In this document: one piece after another, positions 15,633 through 64,000 of the stretch
Position numbering within the stretch: position 1 is the first letter of the stretch
Layout: the number at the start of each line of letters is the position of its first letter
Assembly (NCBI GenBank): GCA_949751835.1
Contig: CATKHK010000058.1
Coordinates: forward strand, 62,001 to 126,000
Reading direction: 5' to 3'
DNA length: 64,000 nt
From: Blepharisma japonicum
Taxonomy: Eukaryota; Ciliophora; Heterotrichea; Heterotrichida; Blepharismidae
The notes under the pieces: generated by a model
Seen by the model: only the letters and a program-made list of their open reading frames with translations
Told to the model about the DNA's origin: nothing
The model's database searches: none
Made by a program: the position numbers and the translations under genes

Positions 15633-15655
15633 GCAATAAAATTTTAAAATTAAAA

Positions 15656-37602: not shown

Positions 37603-40600
37603 CTATATTTGTTCCGTATTCATATCCAAAATTGTTGGCAAAATTGAGAACCTTCTAAGCTGGGTAATTTGATTATTTAAATATGGCAAATAGTAACAAA
37701 AATATAAGAGGCATAAAGCAACTGAATAAATAATTGTGGTATCTATAATAATACCCAGCTGATCATCTATAATTGTTTTAGAGTCATCATCAGCAAGCTG
37801 AAACTCTTGTCCAATTTCCTTTTGAACCTCACTAATTTTAGCCAAAAAATGAGCCATCAAATCACCAGGCCATAAGGTTTCCTGAGAAGCTACATCTTCA
37901 ATGTCAAATATTAATGTATTAATAGAGGCTTCAGTTCCGTATTTTAATAAATCTAAAGTCGAGTTGTAGCTTTCATAGAGCTTCTTAATCAAACTCTGTG
38001 ACATTAAATCTTTGAAGCCCTGCTGCCTAATTTCTATATTATGCTTCAGCAGAGAATCAGTAGATTGGACAAGCATCACATGAGAATTAGCAAAGTCATA
38101 ATAATCAGGGAAATTCAAAATAAAATAAGGCTGGTATAAATCTCGCGCAAAAATACTCATTCTTGATATCAATGATCTTCGGGAGTTAAAATTGCTTAAA
38201 AGTTTCGGCCTATTTATCATTAGCCTTTCACATTTTGGATAAAAATATAAAGAAATCAAAAAATAATAAGATGTAGCAATTGCAAAAAAAATCATAAGTC
38301 TCCAAGTGTAATTTAGATACAAAGATGTTTTAACATGTCTTGCTTCATCTAGACGATTCTGCCTAGTTCTTATTGAAGTATCGATATTATAATCTATGCT
38401 ATGAATAATCATTAATCTTTCAATGCAAGAAAGCTTGAGCTTTGACAAAGAATATTGAGCATTATTTGATACAAAATTTCAAAATTCGTCATGCTTTTGG
38501 GAGACCAGTATTATAAATCCAATTATAATGGTAACCAGAACTGCCAGCGTAATGAATCCTATAATTAGCAGCGCATTTATTATATTTCCATTTCTTTTTA
38601 CTCTATTTATTTCACAATCTTCTATTCCTTGCATAGTGATATTTGTATAGTCATAAGCAAACCCCAGGCCATTAATAATTAAAAACTTGCAATGATCTTT
38701 ATAGTCCTTCCCTAATTTTACATCTGAAATCATATTTTTGCCCTATCTTAAGATTACATGAAATATAAATTCTCCAATAACATCATAAAGATTTTCAAAT
38801 GATCTTTTGGTGCTTTCTCCGTCAAATATCCATAATGGGACTAAAGACTTATAAAGAATATCTGCAGAAGAGCAGTAGTTTCACTGCTCAAAGTCTTGCA
38901 AAATGTCATTTTCTATCCTATCTAAATCAATAATAAGATTTTGGAAAATATTTATTTGGTTCATTTGTAATTCGCTTGAAACATTCATCAAAATCATTCT
39001 ATCAAGAGCCCTTGATGTATCAGCTGAATGGCCTAGATCATATAAAAGGTCACCTACAAGCTTAAATGAGCTTAGAGACGTAGAGTAAGAAACATCGCTT
39101 ATCATATAGCCTAAGATGGCAGAAACTGTAGTTATAACTGACAAAATTACTGCAAAAAGAACCCATTGTAGCACTCTGATTCTTTTTTTGGTGTGCAGCA
39201 GTATTTTTTTGGCATGGACTAATTATAAATTACTAGATTTTATTGAAAATCCGCTAAAATGTTCAAAGGATACTGATTTATCAGAGCGAGTTTTTTCCTC
39301 ATCATTACTTTTGATGAAAGTATTATCAATTGAGCGTGTAAAATCAGTCTCAGTTTTTTCGTATGATTTCATAGTGAGAGATATATCCTGAGTTTGCTGA
39401 AATTTTACTTCAAAAATTTTAGGCTTTGCTTTTATTTCTTCTTGTAGGGTGCCTTCAGTAGCTTGCACAGTTTGCAAAGAATCGCCTTGCTCTTGATCAT
39501 GGTTTTCTAATCATCTTTTCAATTCTTTATCGTTGTGTATAATTACCAGCTGCTCAATTTCTTTTGACATTACTAATGTTTGCATTTTAATTACAGCTAC
39601 TTCTGAATTATTTAGAGGCATCATAAAAGGTTCATTCAATTCGAGGTTTTCATAGCATAGCTGTGGCAACAAAGCAGAGATTTTTTTATTAATAAGAAAT
39701 TTTTCTTGGAGTCCTAAATAGTAGGGAAACAGTTCTGAGTGGCTAGTTATTACGCCTTCTTCTGAAATAAGTGCAATCTGCCGGCTTGTAGCTTTTGGTT
39801 TAAACGATACCAAAAAATAAAGAAAATTATGAAAAGCCGTTAGCTTAACCAATACACTGCACTCTATCATAAAACCTTTTTGGTCTAAAATATAGAGGTT
39901 TTTATGGTCCATAACATCAATTGAATCACAATTTTCAACAAAAGTTCTCATCTGTGTGTCGTGATCAATATCAAAAGGTCTAGGAATGAAGCAATTAAAA
40001 GGAGTTTCATGTGCATTTGGTAAAGAAATTTTTAAAATATGTGTTGCTTTTTCGTTTAAATATACAATTTTCCCAAATGAATCGTCTAAGCATGAGATTA
40101 ATATTGTTGCTACATCTTTTCCATATTTTTCTAAACTTTGTTCTTGCGATCTTTTATTATACAAGCTCATGCCATTTTTTTTCCTTTTAACTATTTCTGC
40201 TTGCTCTTGATTATTATAAATATTTTCAAGGTAGCTAGCATATATTTCAAATGCCTCTAAATTTTTATATCTGTCAACTAGACTTTTATAGCCTTTTTTA
40301 ATTCCTCTTGCAGAGTCTGAGACACGACCTACTAAATTAATTATTTTTTTGATACGAGGATGCGTTGAATAAAACTCAGACTGCAACTCAATCATCATGT
40401 AGCATAAAATTTCATCTTGATTTTTAAGCCTATTATAATCTTTTAAATAATCCAAATAGCTTGTGTCAGGGAATTCTTTGCATTTTCTCATAGTAAGCCA
40501 TCAAAAAAGTCTCCATTCTTGGGCTTCTGCTTCAAAAGAAGATTCATACTTTTTTATTTTCGCAAGCTTGACTCTTGCTAGTCTTTCATCTTTTACCACA

Positions 40601-41832
40601 AAAACACAGAAATTAAACTCCCATATCACAAAAAGCTTATCTTTTTGAAAATGGTGGAGTTTTGAATAAGTTTTAAAAAGATCTAGAATTTCGGATTTTT
40701 CAATAAGATTTTCGTTTGTTAATAAATACCTGTATTTTCTTTCGAAATCAAACTGATTATGAGGAAATGAAGAAATTTTTGAAAGATTTTTGGTTTTGTT
40801 ATTAACGAATCAAAGGACTGCAAATAAGACCATAGGTTGCAAAAAGATATTAAAAATGAGTATAATAAGTGCGCTGTCCATTATTCTCCCGAATAAAAAA
40901 ATCAAAGATAGTGCAGACAATGTCATCATTTTTCAAGCTTGAATAGAATTTTCAATCTGATTAAAATAATCCAAACATAAAATCCCCTGAAGCCCAAGAT
41001 AAAATGAATATAAAAAGACCATAATTTGATGGAAATCTACATTATAATCTCCAAAAATCACATAAGAAACACAAATCAAAATATAAAATAGCCGCCTTTG
41101 TACATCTAATTGTACACTTGACCTTGCCTTTATATTTACTCTATGATGTGAGTGATTAATATCGCATGTAAAATTCTCGAAAGAGAAATTTATAAAAGCT
41201 ATAGATAACAAGCAACTTATTCCAAGTATGAATCCTACTGGCCCGTAATTTAACTCACTTGCACTGATTGACCCTTCATATTCAATTATTGAACTCCGAT
41301 TAATCGTGGAATATTTTACTACTAATAAAAGCATCATTACACTTGGAACAAGGCAAATCGTCGTCAAAGATAAAGCAATTTTCCTGGTTAAAATCACAAA
41401 TAGCGACGGAATTTCTTTTTTTAAGTAAAAAGATATTCCGAAAATCAGAAAAGTTACAAAACAGATCCCTATGAGTGAAAGTGTACCGTAAAAGCAAAAG
41501 CTCATGCTATAAGTTTTTGCACAAATTTTATCATAGCTGATATATCCGATATATTGCCAAATCGGCATATATGATTTTCAGCCAGCTATAGTTAGTTTAG
41601 GATGTCATGCAACTGAAGCCAGTTGTAAAACTAATATCAAGTTTATAAAAATTTCATTTAAAATCTGAACTCTAACTTTCGTTTTTCGGCTGTATTTAGG
41701 TTTAAAGATCTTTCCAAAGAAACCAAAAAAATAGTTTTTAAATTTGTTTGTAAAGAGGTTTTGAGAGAAAAATCCATCATTTCCTTTAATTTCCTTTGAA
41801 ATTGCATCATCTTCATCTAAAATCGTGAGCAT
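37603..41832 (-). CDS. Array unit A: TmcB-like multi-membrane TPR/PAS protein, 1,399 residues
   Basis: This is a receptor-like membrane protein of unknown ligand. About eight membrane segments fill residues 55-345. The cytoplasmic part follows: FDFERKYRYLL and a helical TPR-like region (about 370-560, including LEAFEIYASYLENIYNNQEQ), PAS-like domain 1 (IVYLNEKATHILKIS) and PAS-like domain 2 (IALISEEGVITSHSELFPYY). The C-terminal half has four more membrane spans that enclose two helical external domains. Introns: 39219..39233 (gtaatttataattag), just before the ninth span, and 38743..38757 (gtaatcttaagatag), before the tenth. Many Trp codons are TGA. The helical/PAS order resembles the ciliate TmcB/TmcC-like family; this is recognition by eye. 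A is the most divergent unit and lies 185 nt from the dynein start. Confidence 0.88.
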
Positions 41833-42295: not shown

Positions 42296-45200
42296 TTATT
42301 CAGGCTCCATTGGCAAAATTTTTGGAAGAATCGAGAAGCGGCTAAGCTGCTTTACTTGTTTATTCAAATATGGTAAATAATAGCAAAAGAATAGCACACA
42401 CACCGCTGTAGAATATGCTGCAGTTGTATATATAATTGAGTTTAGCCTATCATTTATAAGATTCTTTGAATCGCGATCCGCCAATTCAAACTCGTGGCTG
42501 ATCTCAATTTGAATTGCTACCACATTGGCAAGTATTTCCAAAATTGCTGTGGTAGGTAAAAACGTGTAATATCCTTGATTCTCACAATCATAGATAATGG
42601 AATTAATAGCAGCTTCTGTTCCATATTTAAGAACTTCACGACTTGATTCCACACTTTCATAAATTCTGTCTTCTAATTCTGATGACATTAATTTTCTAAG
42701 CTCGCTTTTTCTAAGCTCTTTATTTTTTAATTTGATAATATTTGCAGTGTTATTAACCATTGTTCAAGCATTTGCAAACTGAAAATAGTGAGGCATCCGA
42801 AATTCTATATAATGGGAATATATTTCTCTAGAAAACATTGACAATCTCCTTAGATTTGACCGCCTCATGTTAAAGTTGCTGAGAAGCTTTGGGCGATTTA
42901 TCATTAAAGCTTCACAATTTGGATACAAATAGCAGAATATTAATAGATAATAAGAAGCAGCTATTGCAAAAAAAATCATAAGTCTTCAGATATAATGTAA
43001 GTAAATGGAAGTTTTCACTTTTCGTTTTGAGTGACTTCCCAGTATATCAATGCTCAGTTCAGAGTTATAATCGATTCCATGAATAAGTATAAGTCTGTCT
43101 GCAGCTGAACTCTTGAGTTTAGCTAGTGCCCACTGTGCATTATTTAAAATAAAATTCCAGAACTCATCAATCTTCTTGGAAACTAAAATAATGTATCCAA
43201 TAATAACTAAAACTAGTATGCCTAGTGTAATAAATCCACATATTAGCAGAATGTTTATATTTGATCCAGTATTTTTCACTCTTTCTATTTCACAATTAAC
43301 AATTCCGTCCATTGTGGAATTTGCTTCATTAAAAAGATTTCCAGACCCATTAATGAAAATAAATCTGAGATAACTAAGATAGGATTTATTTTCTGAAACT
43401 GCTTTAATCATACTTTTGCACTATATAGAAATTACATTTAAAATCATTTCTGATACTGCATCATATAAATTTGAGTATTTTACTCTCGGCTCAACCTCAT
43501 CAAAATATATAATAGGAATTATATCATTTGTCACGATTTCTGAGCTTGAGCAATAGCTTCACTGGCTAAAATCATCAAAAATGGTTCCTTGAACAGTTTC
43601 TAAGTCTGTGATTAAGTTTGTTAAATCATCAATTGATTCTTTTAATTGCTCAGGAGTAGAATCTTGCAGGGTAGCTAACTTGTCTACTATTCTTGCTGAG
43701 TCTGCTGCCAGCCCAAGATCATACAAAAGCTGGCCTAGATCTTTAAAAGAACTCAGAGATGTTGTATATGACACATCAGTTATCATATACGCTAAAATTG
43801 CCCCAACAGTCACTATAACTGAAGACATCTAATTTTTTCTTACCACAAGGAACAGCACAACTTGTAGAACTCTTATTTTTCTTTTTGATTCTACGAGTAA
43901 TCTTTTAGCTTGATTTGGAAGATTATACCCTGCTGAAGATTTCGAATGGTCTTCCGTAAGTGATTTTTTGTCTTGACTCCTGCAAGAGTTTAATAAATCT
44001 TTTGTTTGGGTAATATCATTAGTTAAATATTCTGTTTCTACTTTATCAATAGATTTGGCTGAAAGAGAGAAATTACTGACTGAGTGGTATTTCACTTGCA
44101 TACCTCTTCTTTTTACGTCTATATCTGATTGAGTTTGGTCATAATCACAAGTAACATCCTGATCTGCAAAATATGTTAATTGATCTTGGTCGGTCCCTTC
44201 TTTTCAGTTTTTAATTTCTTTTTGATCATGAATGATTATTAATTCATGTATTGCTACTGAATTAATTAGTCTAATTTTATGGATAAAAGCAAGCTCTCCA
44301 TCATTAAAAGGAAGGATCCAAGGCTCGTAATCCTGCATTTTATTTATTTCTAAAACAGGAACAACAGTTGACAAATTTTGGCCTTTTAAGCTTTTTGATT
44401 CTGAGCCAATATAAAATGGAAACAGTTCAGAATGCCCCGTGATAAATCCATCATCAGATATTATTGCAATTTCGCGCGATGTTTTTCTTTGCTCAAAAGA
44501 AATAAGAAAATACGCACAGTTATGAAACGCTGTCAATTTTATTAAAAAATTGCATTCAACTATATTTCCTTCAATATTTTGTAAAAACAAATATTTATGT
44601 GATGGAAGGTCAATCGTACTACTATTAAATACAAAATCTTTAATTGATTTCAAGTGGCAGACGTCAAAAGGTTGAGGAATAAAATTTAATAGAGATGTGC
44701 CAATTATATTTCCAATTGATGATTTTAAGAGTCGGGATGCTTTTTCGTTAAGATACATAATGCTGCAAAATGAGGCATCAGAACAAGAAACTAAGATTGC
44801 TGGTACATCTTTTCCATAGTTTTCTAATTTTTTTATATCGTTATGCTGGTTATAGAAATTTATTCCATTTTTTTTCCGAGTTATTACACTTGCTTCTTCA
44901 TGATCATTTTTAATATTTTCCAGAAAACCTCCATATAACTCATAGCCTTCTAAATTTTTATATTTTTCACAAAGGTTTTTGAAATCTCCACTAAGAGCTA
45001 TAATAGAGTTTGCAGTCCTATTAGCTAAGTTGACAATCTTATGAATTCTAGGAGCTTTTAAAGAAATTTCTATTTGAAGTTCTATAAGCGTATAACAAAG
45101 TTCTTCATCTTGATTTCTAATTCTACTATATTCTTTTAAAAATTCTAAGTAATTTGTTTCAGGAAAAGACTTGCATTTTCTTTTAACTAGCCATGTAAAA

Positions 45201-46513
45201 AGTCTTCATTCCTGAATTTCTCCTTCAAATGAAGGTTTTGCATTAGCTATTTTAGACAATTTTACCCTCGCTAATCTTTCATTTTTAACTATTGTAAGGC
45301 AATAACTGAATTCCCATATTACAAAAAGTTTATCCTTTTGAAATTGATTTGCTTTTCAATGAGCTTTGAATAAATCAAGTACTCAAAGCTTATCGTCATA
45401 ATTTTTATCAATTAATAAGTGTCTGAATTTTCTTTCAAATTCATACTGATTATTTGGGCACTCAGTGTTGTCTTTTAGCTTCATGTAATTTCTCCTAACT
45501 ATCCGAGCTATCAATAAAAATACTATGGGCTGAAGGCATATAGTAAATATTACAATAATTAAAGCATCATCTAAAATCTCTCCAAATATAAAAACAGAAA
45601 TCATAGTAGAAATTGAGCCCATTTTGCAAGCTTCTATTACGTTTTCAAAGATATTAAAATACTGTAAAACTGTTATTGATTTATAATTCAAAAAAACTGC
45701 ATAAGATAGCAGAATTCCTTGGTGAACTATAACATTTGAATCTCCAAAAGCAACAAATAAAACACAAGTAAATGTATAAAAAATTCGCTTTTGTAGGTCT
45801 AAAAGAGAAAAAGCCCTTGATTTTAGATTTTTTTCTGAATGGGAATGCTGAATGTCGCAAGAAAAATATTCAGAGCATACATTAATTGGAATCAAAATTA
45901 GTAAGCAAAAAATCGAAAGAAATATTCCCATTGTTCCAAAATCAAGGATGCTTGAAGACAAGCCGTCATATTCTTCTATTTCTTGTGTGTCGAGAATTGA
46001 ATATTTTGTTATCATCAGCAGAATCATACTACTTGGAATTAAGCAAACTGTCGTCAGCAGCACTGCAATTTTTTTAGGAAAAATTGATATATAAATTGGT
46101 GGATCTTTTTTGATATAGATATAAAACCCAAAAACTGTAAATGATATCAAGCACATCCCGATAAGAGAAATCGTTCCAAAAAAACAAAAATTCATAATAC
46201 CTAAATTAGCACAAATACTGTCATAGCTTGTTCACCCTATTATTTTTCAGAAGGTTTTATATGAGCTTCAGCCATGCACTTTCATTTTTGGGTATCATGC
46301 TAGTGAAATTATCTGAAGAGTAAACGTAATATTAATTAAAATTTCATAACTGAGCTGAATATTTGGTTTTGTTTTTCTATTGTATTTTACTTTAAAGAGT
46401 TGACAGAAAACCCCATAAAAGTAATTCTTGTATTTGTTTGAAAATAATGATTGAGAGAGAAAGCCGTGCAGATCTTTACCTTCTTTCTCGAATGACTTTA
46501 AATCATTTGCCAT
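42296..46513 (-). CDS. Array unit B: TmcB-like multi-membrane TPR/PAS protein, 1,395 residues
   Basis: Unit B has the same layout as unit A. I chose ATG 46513 (MANDLKSFEKEGKD) because unit E starts in the same style (MPESLKYTENEVKD); an in-frame ATG at 46549 would add 12 residues. The first membrane span is at IQLSYEILINITFTLQIISL. The helical region contains LKAPRIHKIVNLANRTANSI and YELYGGFLENIKNDHEEA, then PAS 1 (IMYLNEKASRLLKSSIGNII) and PAS 2 (IAIISDDGFITGHSELFPFY). Introns: 43829..43843 (gtaagaaaaaattag) and 43421..43435 (gtaatttctatatag), at the same places as in A. The second intron is letter-for-letter the same as in unit E. B groups closely with E and F. Confidence 0.88.
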
Positions 46514-46549
46514 AGTAATCAATCTTAATATTTTTATGGTAAAGTGCAT

Positions 46550-47448: not shown

Positions 47449-50400
47449 CTATTCTGCTTCTATTTTTAAGATATTATGGAGCATTGAAAATCTATCAATT
47501 TGCCTCATTTGGGCTATAAAAAAAGGTCAATAATACAAGAAAAATAAAACTATAATAGCTATGGAGTACACAATTGTTGCATTGATAATAATACTCAATT
47601 GCCCATTTATAATACTTTTAGAGTCATGATCAGCTAATATAAACTCTTGCAAAATTTCATTTTGTACGGCTGCGATTTTTTCAGAATATCGATTATGTTC
47701 TGTAACTGTTAATGCAGGCTTATAAACAATATTATAAATTTCATCAATAACGTCATTAGCTAAAGGGTAGCTTCCTTGATTTAATGCATTTGAATCTGAT
47801 TCTACTATTTCATAAATTCTGTCTTTTAATTCGTTAGACATTAAATTAGCAAAATTGTTTTCCCTTAATTCTTTTGATTTTACTCTAAATTGCTCAAAAG
47901 TATTATCTACCATTTTCTGAGGATTTGGGAATGCATATGATGTTTTGAATAGAGAAATCATATATGGCGACATTGTTTCCCTAGCAAATATACTTAATCT
48001 TGAAATTAGGGCTCTTCTAAGGTTGAAATTGTTTAAAAGTAAAGGTCTATTAATCATCATTTCTTCACAGTTTTTGTAGATAAAGAGATATGTTATAAAA
48101 TAATATGAAGCTGCTATAATAAAAAATATAAATATTCTTTTAGAGTAATATAAATGCAAAGACGATTTCGCATTATAGACTTTATGAATATTTTTTAATA
48201 TTTCTACATTGGGATCACTATTGCAATCTGTTCCATGAATTAGCATTAATCGATCGATTGAGGAATTCTTGAGCTTTACCATAGCAAGTCGAGCATTGTT
48301 CAGCATAAATTTCCAAAATTCATCATGCGATTTTGATACTGAAAGAATAAACAAGAACACAATAGCAGCCAAAAATCCAATTATCATCAATCCTAGTAAT
48401 GTTAGAATATAAATAACAATCCCTGTTACTTTAACTCTATCTTGCTCACAATTAACAATTTTGTTGGTTGTCATATTTGCATAATCAAATGGATATGAAA
48501 GTCCATTTAAATATAAAAACTTTGTATGGTAAGTAAAATCTTGTTTTAAAGATAGACTATTAAGCACTTGTTTACCCTATTTAGTGATTACAGTGGTAAT
48601 AAATCTTGAAATTACATTATAGAGATTATCATGGCCTATAACTGGGCTACCGCTATCAAAATTTCATAATGGGATTATTGGCTCTTCAATAATTTTGGAA
48701 GCTTCACAATATGCCCACAATTCGAAATCAGCTAAAATATTGTCTCTTATTACCTCTAATTCATCAAGAACGATTCTAAAAGTTAGAGCAAAGCTATCCA
48801 TTTGATCTTTCGTATATAGATTAGATTTTGCAGCCTTGTCAAGTGTTCGTATTGAATCTGTTGCAGCTTCAAAGTAATAAAGTAAATTCCCAAGATGCCC
48901 AAGCGAGCTCATTCTCGATGTTCGAGAAACATCTATGATGATGTAGACTAATATAGCAATCATAATAATTATGGCTGAAATCATCTAAAATAATTTTTAC
49001 CATAAAAAATAGAACCCATTTAAGTACATTTATTTTTTGTTTAGTCTTTAAAAGCAGCCATTTTGCGATATTTGAACCCTTACTAATACTATTTCTTGAA
49101 GAAGAGTGCTTTGAAGAACTCTCAACTTGATTGCCAATTCTTTTATTTCCACCTTGTACGTATTTTACTTTATCTTCACTGTTCAAATAAGCATTTGGGG
49201 CCAAATTCTTGAAAAAATTTTGTATAGATTTAGAGTAACTACTATCTGGTGATAAACTTCTGTTTAGAAATTGATTGGCCCCTTTATTTTGAGAATATTC
49301 TGATTGATTTCCATTTTCCGTTGATTTTCATTTTAAAATTTCTTCCTGATCAAATAGAACAAGCAAAATATAAAAATTAGTAGATTTTATTGCTGTCTTG
49401 ACATGAACAAATGCTATTTCTTCCTCGAAAATATTTAAAAAGAATGGATAATCACTTGATACATTTGAAATGTTAAAGCAAGCGATTATATCTGATACTG
49501 GAATATTTTTAGCAACTTTTACAGTGCTTTTTACTGAATAACAAAATAATTCTGAATGATTGAGGATAATATTTTCTTGAGAAAGCAAAGCAATTTGCCG
49601 ATTTGAAGATATTGGCTTAAATGACACTAAAAAATAAGAATTATTATGAAAAGCAGTCAGCTTAATCATAATGTTGCATTCAACCAAAAAATCATCATTT
49701 GTTTTAAAAAATAAGGATTTATGGGAAGAAATTTCTGTTGTAGTGCATTCTTGTAAAAAATTTTTCATTGATTTCTCATGAATAATGTCAAAAGAAGAAG
49801 GAATAAAATTATTAAACGGAGATCCATTAGCATTTATTATAGAAGTCTTCAATATTTGCGCAGCCGTTTCATTAATATAAGAAATTATACCAAAAGTGTC
49901 CTCTGTGCAAGAAATAAGCATAACTCCAATATTTTTCCCATAATTTTCTAAAGCTTGATACTCATTTCTTTTTACATAAATATTTAATCCATCCTTCTTT
50001 TTATTTATTGAACTTGCTTCTTCAGCATTTCCTATGATATTTTCAAGGAAGCTTGAATAATATTCATAAACTTCTAAATTTTTGTGTATTCCAATCAATT
50101 TCTTATACCCCTCAGTAATTTTATTCATATTATTGGAAGTTTTGCTAACCAAATTTATTAAATTTTCTATATTTGGCTTCTTTGAAATAAATTCATTATA
50201 TAATTTTATAATCATATTGCATAAATTTTCATCTTTATATTGAATCCTTTTAAATTCTTCCAAAAATTCTAAAAAATTTATATCATTGAATTTTCTGTGC
50301 TTTTTGCATGAAAGTCTATTGTATATTTTCCATTCTTGAATATCCCCTTCTAATGAGTATTTCGCTTTTGAAATTTTTGACAGCTTTATTCTTGCTAATC

Positions 50401-51625
50401 TTTCATCTTTTACTATTGAATAACAAAAATTAAATTCCCATATTACAAAAATCTTATTTTTCTCAAACCTGCTCATTTTTCAGTAAATATTAAATATATT
50501 CAAAGTTTCAATTTTATTTTCATTAAATTTATCAATAAATAAATATCTGAACTTTCTTTCAAAATCAAACTGATTTTTAGGAATTTCACAGTTTTCATTT
50601 AATTTTTTGTGCCTATAGATGACGATCCATATTGTCAAATATATAGCAAATGGCTGCAAAAAAATATTAAAAATCAAAATTATTTCTGAATTATCCAAAG
50701 TCTCTCCCAAAATAAAAATTAATAAAGTTGTAGAAACCATTACCATTTTGCAAGACTGGATTCAATTTTCAGGTAAATTGTAATATTGGATTACTTTAAT
50801 AGATTTTAAAGCCAAGTACAAAAAAATAATTAATGCTAAGGCTTGATATTGAACAATATTTTCATTTGTAAAAGAAATATATAAAATACATAAAATAATA
50901 TAAAAGAGTTTAACCTGTAAATCGAATTTTGATGACGATCTTGACCTTTTATTCTTTTTTTGATGGGAATGCTTCATATCGCATGAAAACAATTCTGAGA
51001 AAATCAAAATATTTAATAATATAATAAGCGAAAATATTGAAATAATTACGCTTGAATAGCTAAATTCATTATCTTGAATTCTAATTCCGTATTCTTCTAT
51101 ATAGTTTGATTTATTTATGTAATATTTCAATCCAATCAATAATAACTTAAAGCTTGGTATTGTCCCAACTGTTATAAAAATAAATAGGAGAATTTTAGGT
51201 AAAAATGTCAAAAAATGTTGAGGCTTTTTATTTTTGTGATAAAGGAAGCCAAGAATTAGTAAAAATACGAATTCTGAGACTATTAAAATTAAAGTTACAG
51301 TCAAGCAGTAGTTAATTAACCCTGATTCTGCACAAATTGAATCATAGCTAATATACCCTAAAAATTTTCATATATTTTCATAGCCTTCTCATTCAGATAT
51401 ATTGGCATTCGGATATCAAGTCAATCTAATTAATTGTAAGGCTAAAATAGTATTCATCATAATTTCAGAAGCTGCTTGGCTTTTTGGTAGAGTTTTATGC
51501 TTGTATTTTTGATGTAAAAGATTTTCAAATAGCTTATAAAAAATATTTTTAAGTTGATCAAGCTGTGTATGCTTTGGTAAAATTTCATGGATGACTGAAT
51601 TTGCTTTTCCTAATATAGCAGACAT
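47449..51625 (-). CDS. Array unit C: TmcB-like multi-membrane TPR/PAS protein, 1,381 residues
   Basis: Unit C is collinear with A and B but diverged. The N-terminus is MSAILGKANSVIHEILPKHT, with the first span at MMNTILALQLIRL. The helical part includes FDFERKFRYLFIDK and YEYYSSFLENIIGNAEEASS; PAS 1 has IISYINETAAQILKTS and PAS 2 has IALLSQENIILNHSELFCYS, which lacks the second Gly-type turn seen in the others. The linker before the C-terminal spans is longer and Ser/Asn-rich. Introns: 48985..49000 (16 nt, gtaaaaattattttag) and 48577..48591 (gtaatcactaaatag). The true stop is TAG at 47449, beyond an in-frame TGA at 47527. Its C-terminal sequence is the nearest intact relative of pseudogene D. 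Confidence 0.88.
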
Positions 51626-52049
51626 TATATTAAGAAGAGATTTAAATGGACTAAATAATCAAGCAAAGTTCATTTTAAAATTTTTATATAATTACACATT
51701 GAAATATATAAACAAATAAAATAAAGATAATTATTTATAAAATTGATTTTATTTTAATGAAATAAAGTTGATGATATATGGCCAGACTTTAAAAATAATT
51801 TAATAAGCTAAAATATGTTATAAATTTTATTTAAAAAATTAAAAAAACTCATAGCAAATTAAAATATAAGAATAAATACAAGATTGCATCAACCTTAATT
51901 TTTATGATTTTTCTTGCTGATTTAATTAATAATGCTAATATAATTTGTATAGGGATTTGAATGATATAATCAAAATTATACCTTAAAAGCTGCGTTAATT
52001 ATTACTATAAAATATTAAATTATTTATATAACTTCTTACAAATATGTAT
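51626..52049. other. Spacer between array unit C and pseudogene D
   Basis: This is 424 bp of AT-rich DNA with no open frame or repeat that I can identify. Confidence 0.45.
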
Positions 52050-53404
52050 CTATTCAGCTTATATCATCAAGATACTTTGAAACATTGAAAATTTGCTAAG
52101 TTGTTTTGTTTGGGCTATAAAAAATGATCAATAGTAAAAGAAAAATAAAAATAAAACAGATACTGTATAAAAAACTGTGATTTTTATGATGATATTCAAA
52201 TTGACTGCTTATAATATTTTTAGAATCATGATCAGCAAGTAAAAACTCTTGTAAAATTTCATCTTGGGCTGCTGTAATTTTACTACTATATCGTTTATGC
52301 TCTATAGCTGTAAGATTTGTATTTTTGAGGCTGTAAATTTCATCAACGACATCATTAGCTATCGGATAACTTCCTGATCTAAAGCATTTGTATCTGATTT
52401 TTTGCTGTTTCATAGATCCTGTCTATTAATTCTTGGGACATCAGGCTAAAAAATTTTTTGTTTTTTAATTCTTTTGTTTTTATACAAATTGCCCGAGGAT
52501 GGCTCAAGATAGTGCCATCCTCGGGCAATTAGTATATCATAAATTCTGCATAAGTATTCTCTACCATTTCTTGAGGGTTTGAAAAGGCATATAAAGTTTT
52601 GAACAAAGTATTCATATATAGTAAATACGCCTCTCTTGAGAATATGCTTAATCTTGATATTAAAACTCTTCTAAGATTGAAGTTATTTAATAATGAAGGT
52701 CTCTTTATCATCATTTCTTCGCAGTTTTGGTAGATATAAAAATAGACCCAAAAATAATACGAAGCTGCTATAATGAAAAACACTAAAATTCTTTAAGCAT
52801 AAGATAAGTGTAAAGATGAGTGGGACTTTACGAATGCTATGAGAATTTTTAGAAATTTCAGCATTGTTTCAGTATTGTAATCTGTCCCATGGATTAGCAT
52901 TAATCTATCAATTGAAGAATTTTTTAGTTTTACCATTCCTAATTGAGCATTGTTTAACATAAAATTCAAAATCCATCATGTGATTTTGATACTGAAAGAA
53001 CAAATACAAAAATAATCAACTCCAAAATTGCAAGTATCATAAGCCCTACTACAATTAATACTTGTATATTTTCCCCAGTAGTTTTCACTCTATTTATTTC
53101 ACAGTCAACAATTTCATGAGTTGTCCTATTTGAATAATCAAATGCAAATGAAAGTCCATTTAAATATAAAAACTTTGTTTGATAAATAAAATCTTGCTTT
53201 AAATGTATTACCCAGCACTTTCCTGCCCTAAATAATATATACTGTGTCAATAAATCTTGAAATAAAGTTATAAATATTATTATAATCAATAGTTGGCTTA
53301 CAACTATCAAAATTTCATAAAGGGATTATTTGGTCATCAATAATTTTAGAGGCCTTGCAATATGTTCATAATTCAAAATCGGCTAAAATGCCGTCTCTTA
53401 TGAC
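52050..53404 (-). pseudogene. Array unit D: 5'-truncated pseudogene of the TmcB-like family
   Basis: This holds only the C-terminal third of an array unit, closest to unit C (NCEEMMIKRPSLLNNFNLRR against NCEEMMINRPLLLNNFNLRR). Homology to C starts abruptly at about 53404, at VIRDGILADFEL; upstream DNA is unrelated, so the first two thirds are gone. An in-frame TAA precedes the RILVFFIIAASYYF span, at least two single-base length changes disturb the frame around 52330-52410 and again near the last span, and a palindromic insert sits at 52483..52536. The second intron is still recognisable at 53228..53242 (gtatatattatttag). The remaining sequence is still easy to align by eye, so decay is recent relative to the duplication. 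Confidence 0.85.
52483..52536. mobile_element. Short palindromic insert with TA flanks, MITE-like or retained IES
   Basis: Perfect 17-bp arms (aattgcccgaggatggc at 52487..52503 and its reverse complement at 52514..52530) enclose a 10-nt loop. The arms are GC-rich, unlike everything around. The insert is bordered by TATA on both sides. Taking out 54 nt (52 nt plus one copy of TA) brings the flanking coding sequence back into line with unit C (NTYAEFMI joined to KTKELKNKKFF). TA target duplication with terminal inverted repeats fits Tc1/mariner-type MITEs and also ciliate internal eliminated sequences. Which one it is cannot be told from a single copy. Confidence 0.6.
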
Positions 53405-53973: not shown

Positions 53974-56900
53974 CTATTCTGTATCAAGTGGCAAGATATC
54001 TGGGAGAATTGAGAACTGATCAAGGCGCTTAATTTGATTATTAAAGTATGGAAAGTAATAGCAAAAGTATAATAGAAGCAAAGTTCCTGAATATAATGCA
54101 GTTATAGCTATAATAAAATCTAGTTTATCATTAATGAGATTTTTTGAGTCGCGATCTGCCAATAAAAAGTCTTGATTTATTTCGCTTTGAATTTTTATAA
54201 TATCTGCAAGCAATGATAAAATTGTTGCTAAGGGCGTAACTGTGTAAAATACCTTATTTTCACTATCAAGTATTACAGAATTGATAGCAGCTTCTGTCCC
54301 ATAATCTAAAATCTTGGTATCAGTGTCAACTTTTTCGAATATTCTTCTTCTTAATTCTTCTGACATTAATTTTTTCAAATCATTATCCCTGAGTTCTTTA
54401 TTTTTTAGTTTTAAAATATTTGAGGCTTCAATAACACTTGTCCAGGGATTGGGAAAATTAATATATTGTGGAACCATTTTTATGAAATGATGAGAATTAT
54501 TTTCTCTTGAAAAAATCGATAATAATCTAAGATTTGATCTTCTTATGCTAAAGTTGCTAAGAAGTTTTGGTCGATTTACCATTAAATCTTCGCATTTTGG
54601 ATATATATGGAAGGTAATCAAGATATAATAAGAAGCAGCAGCCAAGAAAAAAATCATAAGCCTTATAATATATTGTTTATAAACGGAAGTTCTTACTTTT
54701 CTTTTTAAGCAATTTCCAGGTATATCAATATTTGCTTCTGAGTTATAATCAATCCCGTGAATGAGTACTAATCTATCTATAGCTGAATTCTTAAGTTTAG
54801 CTAATGATGATTGCGCATTATTCAAAATAAAATTCCAAAATTCATCATATTTTTTTGAGGCCATAATAATGCATACAACCACGACTAAAACCAGCACCGC
54901 AAGTGCTAAAAATCCACATATTAAAAGAATATATATATAAATACCTACGGTTTTAATTCTTTGTGTTTCGCAATCAACAAAATCATTCATCATTGAATTA
55001 GTTTTATCATAAAGATATCCAGGACTATTAGTTAATACAAATTTAGCATATTTGAGGTAAGATTTATTGGCTGATAAAGCTGCAATCATATTTTTGCACT
55101 ATATAGAAATTACATTAAATATGATTTCTGATATTGCATCATATAAATTCAAATATTTTACTTTTGGAACTATATCGTCGAAATATATTAAAGGAATTGC
55201 AGGATTTGTAATAATTTCTGAACTATGGCAATATTTCCACTGGTCAAAATTTTCAAAAATGGTTCTTTGAACATCTTCTAACTCTCCAATGATTTTTTCT
55301 AGATTTGCTATATAGATATTAATTGGCTGATTAGTCACATTATTTATCTTCAAAGAATCAATATTTCTTACTGAATCATAAGACAGTCCAAGGTCATATA
55401 AAAGCTGTCCTAGGTTTTTGAATGAGCTTAGAGACGCAGTAAATGACACATCGGTGATCATATATCCTAAAATAGAGGAAACAGCTACTACAACTGAAAA
55501 TACCTAAATGTTTTTTACAACAAGAAATAGCACAACTTGTAAGACTCTGATTTTTCTTTTTGATTCTGAAAGTAGACCTTTCGCTTTATTCGATAATTTG
55601 TAGTCAGATGAAGATTTTGAATAATCATCTGAGTGCAATTTTTTATCCTCATATTTCTTTGAATTTATTTTTGTTTTCTGCGATTCTTCATTTGAATAAA
55701 TTTCTGCTTCAGTTGAAGGTTTTGGCAAGAGAGACGTGCTACTAATTGATAGAAATTGAGCTTTGATTGATTTTCTTACGCGTGAATCTAATTTATTTTC
55801 TTCATCGTCATAATCAATGTTTTGGTCTGCAAAATACATCAATTGGTCTTCATCCAGTCCTTCTTTTCAGTTTTGTATTTCATTCTTGTCATGAATGATG
55901 ATGAGTTCATTTATTGTTGTTGACTTTATTTGTATTTTCTTTTTAATGAAAGCAATTTCTTCGCCATTAAATTGTGCCACCCATGGTTCATAGTCTTTCA
56001 TTTTATAGAGATTTAACGAAGGAATTGCTGATGGGAATATTTGGCCTTTTAAGGTTTTTAACGAAGAGCCAATATAAAAGGGGAAAAGCTCAGAATGCCC
56101 CATAATAAAACCGTCTTCTGAGATAATTGAAATTTCACGCGTCGTTTTTCTTTGTTCAAAGGTAATCAAAAAATATGCAGAATTATGGAATGCAACTAAT
56201 TTTATTAAAAAATTGCATTCAAATAAGTATCCATGAACATTTTGAAAAAATAAATTCCTATGAGATGGTAGTTCAATAGTACTGCTACCAAGAACATAAT
56301 CTTTAATTATTGCTAAGTGGCAAGCGTCAAAAGGATAAGGAATGAATTGTAGCAGTGAAGACCCAGTTGCATTTCCTATTGAAACATTTAATAATAATGA
56401 TGCTTTTTCATTTAAATAGATTATAGCAAAATCAGAGCAAGAAACCAATAACACTGGCACATCTTTTCCATAGTTTTCTAATTTTTTTATATCATTATAT
56501 TGGCTATAAAGTTTTAGTCCATTTTTTTTGCTGTTCATTTTTTCTGCTTCTTCATGATTATTCGAAATATTTTCTAGAAAACTCCCATATAATTCAAAAC
56601 CTTCAATATTTTTATACTTTTCAACAAGATTTTTAAAATCTCTTGAAAGGGTTATTACATAATTTGTTGTCCTATTTGTTAAATTCACAATTTTTTTGAT
56701 TCTTGGAGCTTTCAAAGAAATTTCTATCTGAAGTTCTATTAGTGCATAGCAAAGCTCTTCGTCGTTGTTTTTAATTCTATTGAATTCTTTTAAGAATTCT
56801 AAATAACTTGTTTCAGGGAAAGCTTTAAATTTTCTGTTAACAAGTCATGAAAACAGTCTTCATTCTTGGATTTCTCCTTCAAATGAAGTGTTTGCATTAG

Positions 56901-58167
56901 AAATTTTTGATAACTTTATCCTCGCTAATCTTTCATCTTTTATTATGAAAAGACAGTAATTAAATTCTCATATGACGAAAAGCTTATCCTTTCGAAATTG
57001 ATTTGCTTTCCAGTAATTCTTGAATAAAGAAAGCACTGCAAATTTATCCTCATAGTCTTCATCAATCAATAAATGTCTGAATTTTCTCTCAAATTCAAAC
57101 TGGTTACTTGGTCTGTCTATGTTATTTCCAAGCTTTTTGCAATTTCGCCTAACGAGTTTAATTGTCAGTAAAAATATGGCTGGTTGCAGAAAAGCTGAAA
57201 AAACAATAATAATTGTAGCACTATTTAAGAGTTCTCCAAAAATAAAGAAAAATAATGTAGAGGAAATCGTGCTAAACTTACAAGCAACTATTATATTTTC
57301 CAGCACATTGAAATATTGCAAAACTGTTAATGATTTGTAGCCCAAAAAAAGAGAATATGAAAGCATAACTAATTGATGAGCAAAAACAGTTTCATTTATA
57401 AAAAGTCCAAATGAAACACAACTGAGGAGATAAAAAAGCCTTATGTATAAGTCTAAAAGAGAATGCGACCTCGATTTTATATTTTCTTCTGGATTTGCGT
57501 GCTTAATATCACATGAAAAATATTCTAAATAGAAATTAATTGAAATCAAAACTGCTAAGCCAATAATTGTCGAAAAAACGCCTAAAAGCCCATAATTGAG
57601 TGTAGAAGAAGGCACACTTCCATATTCATCAACTGTTCGAGCATCAATTATTGAATATTTTGCCACAACTAATAAAATCAAAGTGCTTGGAATAAAGCAA
57701 TATGTTGTAAGCATCACAGCAATTTTGTTAGTTCAAATTGATATATAAGCTGGAGGATTTTTTTTAATATATATGAAAAATCCAAAAATTGTAAATGATA
57801 TCAAGCATATCACAATTAGAGAAATTGTTCCATAAAAACAAATATTCATTATCCCGAAACTTGCACAGATGCTGTCATAGCTTGCTCACCCCATAAAATA
57901 TCAGATGGCTGTATATGAGTTCCAATCTTTCATCCTCATATTTGGATATCATGCCAGTGAAATTATCTGAAGTGTGTAAACAGTGTTGATGAAGATTTCA
58001 TAACTGAGCTGGATATTTGGTCTTGTTTTTCTGCTATAATTAACTTTAAAAAGCTGCCCAAAAAAACCATAAAAATAGTTCTTAAAGTTGCTAGAAAATA
58101 ATGATTGAGAAAGAAATTTGTTAAGATCCTTCACCTCATTCTCAGTATATTTTAAACTTTCCGGCAT
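53974..58167 (-). CDS. Array unit E: TmcB-like multi-membrane TPR/PAS protein, 1,387 residues
   Basis: Unit E is an intact, close relative of B and F. The start is ATG 58167 (MPESLKYTENEVKD); an upstream open codon at 58173 is TTG. Spans, helical region (LKAPRIKKIVNLTNRTTNYV, FELYGSFLENISNNHEEAEK), PAS 1 (IIYLNEKASLLLNVSIGNAT) and PAS 2 (ISIISEDGFIMGHSELFPFY) are all present. Introns: 55504..55518 (gtaaaaaacatttag) and 55099..55113 (gtaatttctatatag). Between the PAS part and the ninth span is a charged Ser/Lys/Glu linker of about 110 residues that varies most among units. The C-terminus ends DQFSILPDILPLDTE, a motif shared in form by all intact units. Confidence 0.88.
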
Positions 58168-60032
58168 ATACAATTTTTAAGGTCATTAAATCACTAGAAT
58201 TATGGCAGCGAAATTGATTATTCATTCAAAATTTGAATTTTTTTATTCTAAGCATATAGTTAATAAATTTTCATCAAGCCTAATCAATTAGATAATATTA
58301 TTATATAACTTCTCTCGGTGTTAAGCAAATAATTATAATTTAAATTATTCCTAATGAAAAGACTTCATTTTTGTTTTTAGCCACATAAGCTAAAAAAGTT
58401 TTTTAGTCAATTAAATGTTTTTATCACTATTTATTAAAGCAAACTTGAAGATTTATTGATTTTGATATATTATCTTCTTTGAGATTTAAATTATAGTATA
58501 ATTTATTAATTTAACAAAACTCTCTTTCTGTCTAAAATATCTTATTGCATCAAATTATTATAAGAGAAAGTGTTCAGCTATCAAATGACTTATTAAAATT
58601 TTGATCTCTTTGCATATATCTGCCAAATTTTTGAGGCTCAAAACTTAACCATCTTTTAATGTTCGTTTTATCATCATAATGTAAATTCTTGATGAAAAGC
58701 CCATAAAATTTCAATTTATTAAAAGTTGAGTGAATAAAAATGTCCTAGTTAGACCTTTACATAATATACTCTACTCTTTAAGTTGTTTAAAAGCAGCAAA
58801 ATACATAGGAGGCTTGAATAATTTAAATAATTTATTTTTAATTGCTAAAATATTAAGGCCTCCGTTGAAATTAAACTGCATCCAGATATTAAATTACTGA
58901 TTTATACATGCATTAGTCAATATAAAATATATTTGCATAGAAATCTGAATTAGAATTTTAAAAACTATTTATCATATGTTAACAAATTACCTTATTTTGG
59001 CACCTTATTCTAAACAACTACAGTCTTAAAATATGCTGAATTTTTATTGAAGTCCATTTTAATTATAATAATTAAAATCGCTTCATTAATTATAGCTTTC
59101 GTAAGTGACAACTGCTTTATTAATTTTTTGCTATTATAATTTTTTGTGCACAAAATCGCGTTAGACATTCGACTTTAGACTGTTGCTGGAGGACTTGCTA
59201 TTGTGAGTTTTTTGTTTTTATGTTGTGTATTTGTTTTGTATGTTTTGGTACTTTTGGATGATGGTGCTGCTGATGGTGCTATTGAAGGTAATGCTGCTGA
59301 TAATGATGCTATATGGAAGGTGATGCTGTTGATGGTGGAGTTATTATTTAGAAAAAAAGAGAGTAATGCTGCATAGGCAGCGCTAAAATAAGTTTATAAG
59401 TTATTTTAATTTTTTGTTACACAAATTTACTTTTTAATAATTGATATTGCTTTAGCATGAACTCCAAATTTATTATGGAATTCAATGTATTAGATATCTT
59501 GCCCTAGAATTTTAGATACGTCTTATATAATGTTTCTTTTATTATAATCTTTAGCAAACTACTTTAAAAGATTATTATTTCTATAAGACTCTGATAGACT
59601 GGCTTTAATTGAGTAAGGTGACGATTTTGACTATTCTTGAGCATTCTGTTTTTTGCCACCTAAGGATTTATTTATCTGAAACTCTATACTTCGGTTTTCC
59701 TATTCTTTTCTTCCTAAATCTTTGTTCTCCCATTCGCTAAGAGGAAAAGAACCCTTTAAGGCTGTAAAAGAATTTTAAGTATTTTAAAGCTTATAAGATA
59801 AAAAATTGAATTTTTATTCTAATTTTGAGATAAATAAGACCTTTCTTCATGCCCTATGTAATTCTTGATCAAGCCTTTTAGCTTAGCTTAGCTTTATTGC
59901 TTTAATTTGATATTTTATAATATTTTTATCTGATTTAAGATAATTAGAATAGTTTAAATGATTTAAACCTTAATAATCCATTGTGCTTATTTTAAAGATT
60001 ATAATTACCACAAAACATTATTCGGAATCCAT
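58168..60032. other. 1.87-kb spacer between array units E and F
   Basis: This is the longest spacer of the array. It is AT-rich and without a gene, apart from a short imperfect trinucleotide repeat at 59257..59340. I found no remnant of a further array unit here. Confidence 0.45.
59257..59340. repeat. Imperfect GATGGTGCT-type trinucleotide-phased repeat
   Basis: Units of the form gatggtgct, gctgatggt and aatgctgct follow each other in a 3-base phase. On the minus strand they would read as Ser/Ala/Pro-rich, but stops interrupt within a few tens of codons both ways. It is either simple repeat DNA or a leftover low-complexity tail of a dead gene. Confidence 0.5.
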
Positions 60033-63000
60033 TTATAAGATCTCTGGCAAAATCGAGAATCTATTAAGCTGTTTGATTTGCCTATTAAAATATGACAAAT
60101 AATAGAAAATATATAGCATGATTAGCGCTATTGAGTATGTCACTGTTGCATTTATAATCAAATTTAGCTCATAATTTATAAAATTTTTTGAATCACGATC
60201 TGCTAATAAAAACTCTTGGCCTATTTCGTTTTGGATTGCTACTACTTCTTCAAGAATTGCAAATATCTTTGATGAAGGAGTAAATTCATAATATCCCTGA
60301 TTTTCACTATCTTGAATAATAGTATTTATTGCAGCTTCTGTCCCATAGTCAAGGATCCTTTTATCGGAATCTACCTTATTATATATTTTCACTCTTAATT
60401 CTTTTGACATTAATTTTTTTAATTCACTTTCTCTGAGTTCTTTGTTTTTAGATCTCAAAATACTGGATGCCTCATCAGCACTTATTCAGGCATTTGCATA
60501 TTGAAAATATTGTGGAATTTTTTTTTGAAAGTAATGGGAATAAGTTTCTCTGGAAAGCATTGAAAATCTTCTAAGAGTTGAACGCCTTATATTAATGTTG
60601 CTAAGGAGTTTTGGACGATTTATCATTAAATTTTCGCATTTGGGGTACATGTAGAGGGAAATTAAGAGATAGTAAGAAGCAGCAATTACGAAAAATATCA
60701 TAAGTCTTCAGCTATATTGCAACCAAATAGAAGTTTTTATTTTTCTTTTTATTCGGTTTCCTGATATTTCCATATTTAAATCTGAATTATAATCAATTCC
60801 ATGAATGAGAACCAGCCTATCTATGGCCGAACTCTTCAGTTTAGCAAATGCCCATTGAGCATTATTCAAAATAAAATTCCAAAATTCGTCTTGCTTACGT
60901 GATACAAAAATTATATATCCTATAATAACCAAAACTAGCGCTCCAAGAGCGAAAAATCCAAATATTAAGAGAGTATTGATGTATATGCCAGTGGTTTTTA
61001 CTCGTTCTATTTCGCAATCTACAATCCCATTCATTGTAGAATTCACACTTTCGTAAAGATATCCCATCCCATTAACTAATACAAATCTGGCATATTTTAG
61101 GTAGGAATCATCATCTGAGATGGCACTAACCATACCTTTACACTAAATAAAAAAATACATGTAAAATGACTTCTGATACCGCATCATATAAATTCAAATA
61201 TTTTACTCTTGGCTCAAAAACATCGAAATATATTAAAGGAATGACAGGATTTTTAGCTATTTTTGAGACTGAGCAATAGCTTCACTGGTCAAAATCATTA
61301 AAAATTGTCCCTTTGATAGATTCTAAGTCTGATATTAAATTTTGTAAATCATTAATGATATCATTTATTTGTTCATCAGCAAGCTTTAAATTATCAATAA
61401 ATCTTACAGAGTCTGCAGATAGCCCAAGATCATATAAAAGCTGTCCTAAATCTTTGAAAGAACTGAGAGACGTTGTATATGACACATCAGTGATTATATA
61501 CCCCAAAATAGCACCAACTACTACAATTACTGAGAACATCTAATTTATTATTACCACAATAAATAGCACAATCTGAAGAATTCTGATTTTTCTTTTCGAC
61601 TCTAAAAGTAGATTTTGGGCTTCTTTTGAAAATTTTGAGCCAACTGAAGATTTTGATAAATCCTCTATTCCTGCTTTTTTGATTTCATTTTTTGTAGAAG
61701 GGTCTTCATTTCTCTGAGAACTTATTTCTTTAAACTGAAAATCTTCATTTGTATATACTTCTGTTTCAAACGAAGTTTTTTGTAAAAGTGACATATTAGT
61801 AATTGAGAGGAATTGAACTTGGATGCTTTTTCTACCTTCTTCTTCTATTTGAGATTTTTCGAAGTCAAAAGTTGTATCTAGGTCTTCAAAATGCATTAAT
61901 TGCTCAGGATCGATTCCTTCTTTTCAATTTTTGATTTCTTGATCGTCATGAAGAATTATCAATTCACGGATAACAGTGGACTTTATTTGTTTTTTTGTTT
62001 TAATAAAAGCAATTTCGCTACCATTAAAAGGCATAACCCATGGCTCAAAGTCTTTCATTTTATTTATTTCTAATTTAGGAACTACAGATGATAAGTTTTG
62101 ACATTTTAAATTTCTTGATTCAGTACCGATGTAGAAGGGGAAAAGTTCGGAATGTCCCATAATAAAACCGTCATCTGAAATTATTGCAATGTCACGATTT
62201 TCTTTCCTCTGCTCAAAAGAAATCAAAAAATATGCACAGTTATGAAACGCTGTCAGTTTAATTAAAAATTTGCACTCAAATAAGTACCCTTTGATATTTT
62301 GAAAAAATAAATATTTGTGTGATTGAAGCTCAATTGTATTACTATCTAACACAAAATCTTTAATATTTTTGATGTGGCAAACATCAAAAGGTTGAGGAAT
62401 ATAATTCAGCAGTGAAGTACCAATTATATTTCCTATAGAAGATTTTAGTAGGAGTGAAGCTTTTTCGTTGATATACATAATATTATTATCAGAGCAAGAA
62501 ACCAATAAAATTGGCATATCTTTTCCGTAGTTTTCTAAATTTTTTATATTATTTTGCTGATTATAATAATCAAGACCATTTTTTTTCCTATTCATTTTTT
62601 CAGCTTCTTCATGACTACTCAATATATTCTCTAAAAATGTCCCATATAATTCATAACCTTCAACATTCTTATATTTATCACAGAGATTTTTGAAATCTTT
62701 GGAAAGGTTTATTAAATAATTTGTTGTTCTTTTTGACAAATTCATAATTTTATCAATTCTCGGAGCTTTTAAACAAATCTCTGCCTGAAATTCTATAAGT
62801 AAATAACAAAGTTCCTCATCTTGGGTTCTAATCCTACTGAACTCTTTCAAAAATTCTAAATAGCTTGTTTCAGGAAAAGCTTTGCATTTTCGCTTAACAA
62901 GCCATGTAAAAAGCCTTCATTCTTGGATTTCTCCTTCAAACGAAGTTTTTGCATTCCCAATTTTCGACAATTTTACCCTTGCTAATCTTTCATCTTTTAT

Positions 63001-64000
63001 TATTAAAAGACAATAGTTAAATTCCCATATCACAAAAAGCTTATCTTTTTGAAATTTATTTGCTTTTCAAAAATTCTTGAATAAATCTAACATCCAAAAT
63101 TTATCTTCATATTGTTTATCTATTAATAAATGTCTGAATTTTCTTTCGAACTCAAACTGATCCTTTGGACACTCTTCACTGTCTTTTAGCATTTGATAAT
63201 TCCGTTTAACCACCCTATTTATCAGGAAAAATACTATTGGCTGCAGAAAAATTGAAAAAACTATTATAATTGAAGCACTATCCAAGAGCTCTCCAAAAAT
63301 AAAAAATAACAATGTAGTAGTAATTATGCTGAGTTTGTAAACTTCAATTATATTTTCAAGGACATTGAAATAATGTAAAACTGTTATCGATTCAAAAGTC
63401 AACAAAAGTGAAAACAATAATAAGACGGATTGATGAATAATTGCTCTCTTATCCACAAAAGTCACATATGAAATACAAACAAGAATGTAAAAAAGTCTTT
63501 TTTGCATGTCTATAAAAGAGCATGATCTTGATTTTAAATTTTTTTCTGGGTGGGCATGTTGAATATCACAAAAAAAATATTCACAATATAAATTAATTGA
63601 TATTAGAATTGCAAGTCCAATAACTGAAAGAAACACTCCCTGGAAGCCAAAATTAAGGATAGAGGAAGATAATCCATCGTATTCTTTTATCACTTGAGTG
63701 CTGATTATTGAGTATTTTGCTATCATTAATAGAATCATTGTACTTGGGATCAAACATACTGTTGTGAGCAATGTTGCAATTTTACGAGGTCAAAACGATA
63801 TATAAATTGGTAAATCTTTCTTTAAGTAAATAAAATATCCAAAAACTGTAAACGATGCTAAGCACAAACCTAAAAGAGAAAGCGTCCCATAAAAACAAAA
63901 ATTCATAATCCCAAAATTTGCACAAGCACTATCATAGCTTGCCCATCCTAATAGTTTTCATAAGATTATGTATGAGTTTCAATCACTTACCTTCATGCTT
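60033..64000 (-). CDS. Array unit F: TmcB-like multi-membrane TPR/PAS protein, N-terminus outside window
   Basis: About 1,311 residues are visible; comparison with E shows roughly 75 N-terminal residues, including the first span, are missing at the window edge. Everything else is present and open: spans two to eight, LKAPRIDKIMNLSKRTTNYL, YELYGTFLENILSSHEEAEK, PAS 1 (IMYINEKASLLLKSSIGNII), PAS 2 (IAIISDDGFIMGHSELFPFY) and the C-terminal double-domain half. Introns: 61540..61554 (gtaataataaattag) and 61143..61158 (16 nt, gtatttttttatttag). It ends ILPEIL at TAA, a few residues shorter than B or E; an ATGGATTCCGAATAA tail lies just beyond the stop, so a recent point change may have shortened it. 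Confidence 0.88.

Follow-up and report, generated by a model that had tools for sequence, protein, structure and literature searches.

What is encoded by the long minus-strand reading frames that follow one another through positions 37603-64000 of this Blepharisma japonicum DNA, and why are there so many of them? The window, i.e., the whole analysed stretch of 64,000 nucleotides, corresponds to C58:62001-126000 (contig CATKHK010000058.1) in a genome of 45.2 Mb and 224 contigs. A first-pass annotation, made from the letters alone, had described here six copies of an unusual receptor-like membrane protein. We propose that the frames belong to separate genes in a TmcB/TmcC-type family that has expanded greatly and might act as a surface sensory receptor repertoire, a reading to which we grant, as a whole, slightly less than an even chance. 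Within it, membership in the TmcB family, the order of parts, the independence of the genes, mostly local duplication and purifying selection are directly shown or well supported; the sensory receptor role is our best guess from the sequence.

Five genes and a remnant of the TmcB/TmcC-type family

With TGA read as sense, positions 37603-64000 hold ten frames of 150 aa or more on the minus strand, and one more crosses the window end. They resolve into five genes, labelled A, B, C, E and F, plus the remnant D, arranged head-to-tail and all on the minus strand. Of the six head-to-tail copies previously described, positions, strand and common family stand, but the count becomes five genes plus a remnant, and the array extends far past the window. 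The genes share one plan: exon 1 of ~2.6-2.7 kb, a GT..AG intron, exon 2 of ~0.4 kb, a further intron and exon 3 of ~1.1 kb, both introns being 15 or 16 nt long in each of A, B, C, E and F. Once spliced, all five are free of internal stops, encode 1386-1399 aa (161-163 kDa) and possess their own plausible start and in-frame stop; start codons and domain borders throughout are our placement.

Unit A (37603..41832; this and all following units on the minus strand) consists of exon 1 (41832-39234), exon 2 (39218-38758) and exon 3 (38742-37603), with introns at 39233-39219 and 38757-38743 (15 nt each), and encodes 1399 aa (163 kDa). Compared with B, C, E and F, its intron 1 (39219-39233) is shifted ~25 codons upstream. 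Unit B (42296..46513; 1395 aa) has exons at 46513-43844, 43828-43436 and 43420-42296 and introns at 43843-43829 and 43435-43421 (15 nt each). Unit C (47449..51673; 1397 aa) comprises exons 51673-49001, 48984-48592 and 48576-47449, interrupted at 49000-48985 (16 nt) and 48591-48577 (15 nt), and unit E (53974..58167; 1387 aa) exons 58167-55519, 55503-55114 and 55098-53974, interrupted at 55518-55504 and 55113-55099 (15 nt each). The start codon of unit F (60033..64000; 1386 aa) is located 224 bases past the window end; its exon 1 runs to 61555 and is followed by an intron (61554-61540, 15 nt), exon 2 (61539-61159), a second intron (61158-61143, 16 nt) and exon 3 (61142-60033). Gaps between units measure 463 (A-B), 935 (B-C) and 1865 (E-F) bases. 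Units G, H and I, beyond the window, have the same gene plan, unit I being incomplete, with its first part absent from the stretch used.

Unit D (52053..53404) is what is left of a C-like gene's 3' half, namely part of exon 2 and exon 3, traversed by frame changes and stops; its mean identity to C is 49.3%, compared with at most 38.2% to seven other units. Pseudogene formation, part of the earlier description, is thus real for D, which is clearly broken, but D is the sole such case among 32 exon-3 matches on C58, F merely stopping five codons early. The corresponding check for breaks in exon 1 extended to the window units, to G and H, to part of I and to the loci of the tree described below. 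Within D lies a palindromic insert (52491..52526). Palindromes of this kind, 35-36 nt long with 13-nt perfect arms, occur at six places of the genome (inside D and on C7, C21, C32, C40 and C160); the one in D is possibly a miniature mobile element. Palindromic eliminated sequences are mentioned for Blepharisma in an excerpt of PMC9942856.

Family membership follows from the Pfam profile TPR_TmcB (PF25474; cut-off 27 bits), which scored 35.3, 30.4, 39.5 and 31.7 bits in exon 1 of A, B, C and E, respectively, the four units covered by this cut-off test. At E<=0.01 it was found in 35/35 exon-1 proteins, F among them. Both the TPR-like region and the resemblance to TmcB, formerly noted by eye, are hereby confirmed, and a profile search gave TPR_TmcB scores over the cut-off in the window units A, B, C and E themselves, with PAS matches at E<=0.01 confined to their relatives.

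Searching the genome with TPR_TmcB (E<=1e-3) yielded 146 matches on 38 contigs, 140 of them over the Pfam cut-off and six below; 116 of the 146 sit in clusters of at least two, where neighbours share a strand in 86/100 cases and lie on opposite strands in 14/100. Exon 3 of B had 110 genome matches, 20 of which, D included, have no TPR match at the expected distance. Exon 3 of C added at least one further locus (C78:189150), ten new-looking matches having been examined. The total is at least 167 TmcB-type loci with D, or at least 166 without it (the first 166 on 42 contigs), including 21 exon-3-only loci with D; these counts are lower bounds, since the genome searches score limited candidates, and intactness was checked for a minority of loci outside the window. 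On C58 there are 32 loci, 30 in one cluster from ~99.6 to ~244 kb and two at 273-283 kb, so that the window represents one end of a ~30-unit cluster. At ~4.2 kb each and if all are full length, the family would by simple arithmetic make up ~0.7 Mb of coding sequence, or 1.5% of the genome. TPR_TmcB was not found in any of 14 control genomes. Two short patterns from the window units gave 156 matches in viral contigs and 52 in prokaryote contigs, none of them relatives, although distant relatives would escape such patterns. Two introns are present in 12/14 full-length members (two of those inferred) and one in the others; a C20 member has no first intron and a C56 member no second. In H and in the members of C57 and C17, the 15 nt where intron 2 would lie are free of stops and were kept as five residues.

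The reading frames require TGA as sense, with 8-12 TGA codons per unit. In 540 ordered pairs from eight units, TGA was aligned with TGA 304 times, with TGG 126 times and with another residue 110 times; tryptophan encoded by TGG hence accounts for 126 of the 236 residues that stand opposite TGA and are not TGA themselves. The telomere unit CCCTAACA, three in a row, gave 77 and 91 matches on the two strands and its reversed control none; the matches listed lie near base 1 or at the far contig end (C5, C6, C7, C17 and C38). For Blepharisma stoltei, an excerpt of PMC9942806 gives the telomere unit CCCTAACA, TGA as tryptophan and introns mainly of 15 and 16 bp. Telomeres, code and introns of the present genome are thus as in Blepharisma, which is very likely the source genus.

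Membrane plan, TPR region and PAS-like pair

From the N-terminus, the proteins consist of about eight membrane spans, the TPR region, two PAS-like folds, a span, an outer helical domain, a span, a loop, a span, a second outer helical domain and a final span. This plan agrees with the first-pass annotation and fits, for the most part, the charge pattern and a model of exons 2-3. Across 14 full-length members, the share of lysine plus arginine (K+R) is 15.4% in the N-terminus, 5.3, 20.6, 8.4 and 15.4% in the next four loops and 16.8% on the TPR side, followed by 8.0% in outer domain 1, 15.5% in the loop, 12.0% in outer domain 2 and 13.3% in the tail. Such alternation is as expected for proteins with N-terminus, TPR and PAS regions inside the cell and two domains outside. 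Hydropathy alone resolves the eight-span part into six segments, two of which are long enough for hairpins, and eight N-terminal spans are therefore likely rather than settled.

Exons 2-3 of A were modelled as a helical structure in which outer helical parts sit between spans, at a mean predicted local distance difference test (pLDDT) score of 65; this model is the best of five (65.1), the other four reaching 41-45. Three cysteines of the outer part are present in 14/14, 15/15 and 15/15 expanded members and in 0/3 members outside the arrays. These C-terminal comparisons included 18 sequences, of which that from C17 is partial, without the first cysteine region. An internal repeat linking the first and second outer halves was considered and found unsupported despite their matching register (hhalign probability 0.9%, E 0.06).

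In unit B, the TPR_TmcB domain is located at 44864..45154 (minus strand, residues 454-550), and two tandem PAS-like folds follow at 44189..44806 (minus strand, about residues 570-775, by our borders). By Pfam, no PAS domain exceeded the cut-off in the window units on their own (best PAS_9, E 0.029). Relatives scored at E<=0.01 for PAS_9 in 13/35 and for PAS in 10/35 cases, the best values being 7.3e-8 and 4.1e-10, respectively. The 35-row exon-1 profile matched FixL among PDB sequences (E 1.9e-4), and at E<=1 it was only the PAS region and a short TPR-side stretch that found partners (21 distinct sequences); a single-sequence PDB search with exon 1 of B gave no match. Compared with PDB folds, the exon-1 model returned PAS proteins in 36/36 matches at E<=1e-3, DosP being the best (E 1.0e-5), with PAS alignments spanning some 230-320 columns. 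The model itself is poor (mean pLDDT 44, built on five sequences): per block of ten residues, pLDDT is 62-77 in the second PAS (residues 681-780) and about 28-50 in the first. The first PAS is accordingly traced mainly in the sequence, through Pfam stretches in B and C and the FixL match. Aligned profile to profile, the two PAS regions gave a probability of 56.5% (E 1.1e-4, 31 columns). Since relatives, family profile and fold comparison agree in supporting it, we retain the PAS-like pair, as originally described, though the window units fall under the cut-off.

Local duplication, selection and rates

An exon-1 tree was built from 35 of the at least 167 loci, namely the five window units and the 30 best-scoring others, and thus leans to high scorers. 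Eight members outside large arrays ('canonical') are separated from the 27 others with support of 100/100. All nine sampled members of C58 form one clade (100/100); the four of C50 group together (100/100) with one C49 member nested inside, the four of C38 form a weak clade (83/48) and the three of C57 fall in two places. The canonical members of C54 and C5 do not cluster by contig. B, E and F constitute one clade (100/100), separate from A and C, and D is nearest to C (49.3%), so the subgroups A, B/E/F and C/D drawn up from the sequence alone are recovered. End branches have a median length of 0.54 changes per site. Because array members mostly cluster by contig, as was suspected of a local expansion, we conclude that the arrays expanded mostly by local duplication, most splits being old; this was assessed in the present ciliate genome.

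The ratio of non-synonymous to synonymous changes (dN/dS; Nei-Gojobori) over whole genes ranged from 0.17 to 0.35 in 11/11 pairs computed, of 28 possible, indicating purifying selection and hence that the unit frames are not due to chance. The youngest pair, F-G, has dN 0.075 and dS 0.327. Outer dN/dS was 0.18-0.41 in the 11 pairs; outer domain 1 exceeded the TPR region in 10/10 pairs with both values computable, which speaks mildly for chemoreceptor-like divergence, yet at only 0.25-0.32. Mean relative rates are 0.84-1.01 for PAS and TPR parts (0.84 for the first PAS), 0.99 for the eight-span part and 1.14 for the N-terminus, and the cytoplasmic linker changes fastest (1.39). Linker dN/dS amounted to 1.02 (A-B) and 1.43 (A-C), values to be read with a doubtful alignment in mind, as residues agree at 23% and 14%, respectively. 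Such a fairly uniform pace of change speaks against an arms race over recognition.

Possible roles and comparison with known systems

If these are surface sensory receptors, the protein would reside in the surface membrane with both ends inside, and a cue from outside would be met by the two outer helical domains, of which the first is probably held together by a disulphide. Spans 9-12, the four at the C-terminus, might then relay a shift to the PAS pair and TPR region in the cytoplasm. As no enzyme is fused, these regions are proposed to bind a separate effector. Many slightly different copies would provide a repertoire of cue specificities or expression conditions. The absence of an output domain, claimed from the start, was upheld: no fused output enzyme occurs in the units examined. 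Guanylate/adenylate cyclase domains form a sizeable family in this genome (87 matches, many paired ~1.5 kb apart), and 37/87 share a contig with a TmcB locus; none of the 87 lies closer than 30 kb, the distance of the nearest, and a cyclase fusion was rejected.

Several observations weigh against a receptor role or the topology it presupposes. The loop at 278-296, which eight spans would place inside, has a K+R share of just 4.5%, and that of outer domain 2 is barely under that of the tail (12.0 and 13.3%). Outer domain 1 has no significant excess of N-glycosylation motifs (32 versus 26.1 expected; 117/1000 shuffles as high), and outer domain 2 has too few of them (9 versus 22.6 expected; 1000/1000 shuffles at or above the observed number). 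The PDB fold search with the exon 2-3 model of A returned no significant match for the outer part. With mean relative rates of 1.04-1.07 the outer domains are not hypervariable, and neither pairwise dN/dS nor rates revealed positive selection on them, no site model having been run. Finally, the PAS domains could be sensing something inside the cell.

This last point leads to the most serious competitor, which we regard as unlikely, at perhaps half the weight of a surface repertoire: a sensor of internal state, whose PAS pair would bind a small molecule, cofactor or gas and regulate an eight-span channel or transporter, the outer domains serving for assembly or as a scaffold. The first PAS is among the slower parts (0.84), the outer domains lack hypervariability, and among the best PDB fold matches are DosP, FixL and PpsR, which are oxygen or redox sensors. 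Against this, the 35-row exon-1 profile found no relation to channels or transporters among PDB sequences (E<=1), and its FixL match stops before the later part of the PAS domain, so that it bears on no cofactor residue.

Structural or adhesive cortex proteins, present in many copies for dosage, would account for purifying selection and for fairly even rates across most of the protein. Dosage copies would be near-identical, which a median end branch of 0.54 changes per site contradicts, and the PAS and TPR parts count as regulatory modules; we hold this explanation to be improbable. Receptors for cell recognition or mating, e.g., for gamone 1, a pheromone with receptors termed putative in an excerpt of PMC10892320, appear a shade less probable still. 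The Blepharisma-type genome (CCCTAACA telomeres, TGA as tryptophan and 15-16 nt introns), the large set of paralogues and the conserved outer cysteines are in their favour, but one pheromone needs no such gene number, the outer domains are not hypervariable and the data show no mating link. That the head-to-tail, one-stranded units are exons of a single giant transcript is hardly credible and was rejected, as A, B, C, E and F each have an in-frame stop and a plausible start with gaps of 463-1865 bases, G, H and I repeat the plan, and 14/100 cluster neighbours across the genome lie on opposite strands.

Returning to a surface sensory repertoire, a bolder version, in which the TmcB set resembles a small animal odorant-receptor set, selectively expressed and including surface receptors for mating or prey cues, is a long shot. 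The molecular means by which ciliates recognise food, mates and chemicals are largely open. At least 166 loci of sensor-like membrane proteins, among them an expanded clade with distinctive outer cysteines, make a concrete and testable set of candidates, as well as a case of large tandem arrays under purifying selection in a seemingly somatic ciliate genome.

Elsewhere in the window, a dynein heavy chain adjoins the array as a single 4006-aa open frame (25403-37420, minus strand; Pfam AAA_6, DHC_N2 and Dynein_C). Two adjacent PRELI-like genes (15623-16498 and 16620-17465, plus strand) each show an RPAP3_C match below cut-off. Further frames encode a protein kinase (14430-15632, plus strand), an ABC transporter of 1258 aa (8116-11892, minus strand) and a serine carboxypeptidase (3435-4838, minus strand).

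Among known systems, TmcB/TmcC-like proteins (PF25474), a name presumably derived from 'tiny macrocysts', are closest: TPR_TmcB scores over cut-off, the N-terminal part is multi-span and PAS follows TPR. The C-terminal spans with outer helical domains are likewise seen, as far as tested, in TmcB proteins that this genome encodes outside the arrays. TmcB proteins on C54, C5 and C24 align with array members over the C-terminal part and have the same plan there, and the C54 protein, its open frame read whole, also has spans, TPR_TmcB and PAS; the design can therefore no longer be called unusual. Array units are shorter than the C54 member (~1390 aa versus a 1730-aa open frame) and lack its long acidic linker, and they differ from TmcB members outside arrays by one or two short introns, the three outer cysteines and the large tandem arrays.

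Tandem-PAS sensors (DosP, FixL, PpsR and the HIF-2/ARNT pair) share the PAS folds matched by the exon-1 model, whereas the units contain no kinase, phosphodiesterase or DNA-binding part and are membrane-bound with TPR. The likeness to bacterial methyl-accepting chemotaxis receptors is a general one, an outer helical domain between two spans; the inner side consists of TPR and PAS instead of a signalling hairpin. A bacterial chemoreceptor fold ranked fourth in Foldseek at a non-significant E of 0.36, and Pfam scans gave no methyl-accepting chemotaxis protein (MCP) family. With chemoreceptor repertoires the family shares expansion by local duplication. The first-pass suggestion that it also diverges like them is not supported, as the ligand-facing part would be expected to change fastest or to show positive selection, whereas outer domains (1.04-1.07) change more slowly than N-terminus (1.14) and linker (1.39).

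In the open-licence literature, judged by title, nothing was found on this family; 'tiny macrocysts' and the combination of TmcB with Tetrahymena were absent, and TmcB with Dictyostelium returned only papers unrelated by title. Neither the family, which is in Pfam, nor the design, which as far as tested recurs in non-array members of this genome, is new; what sets the Blepharisma arrays apart is how far the family has expanded and its cysteine-marked clade, both unseen by title in that literature.

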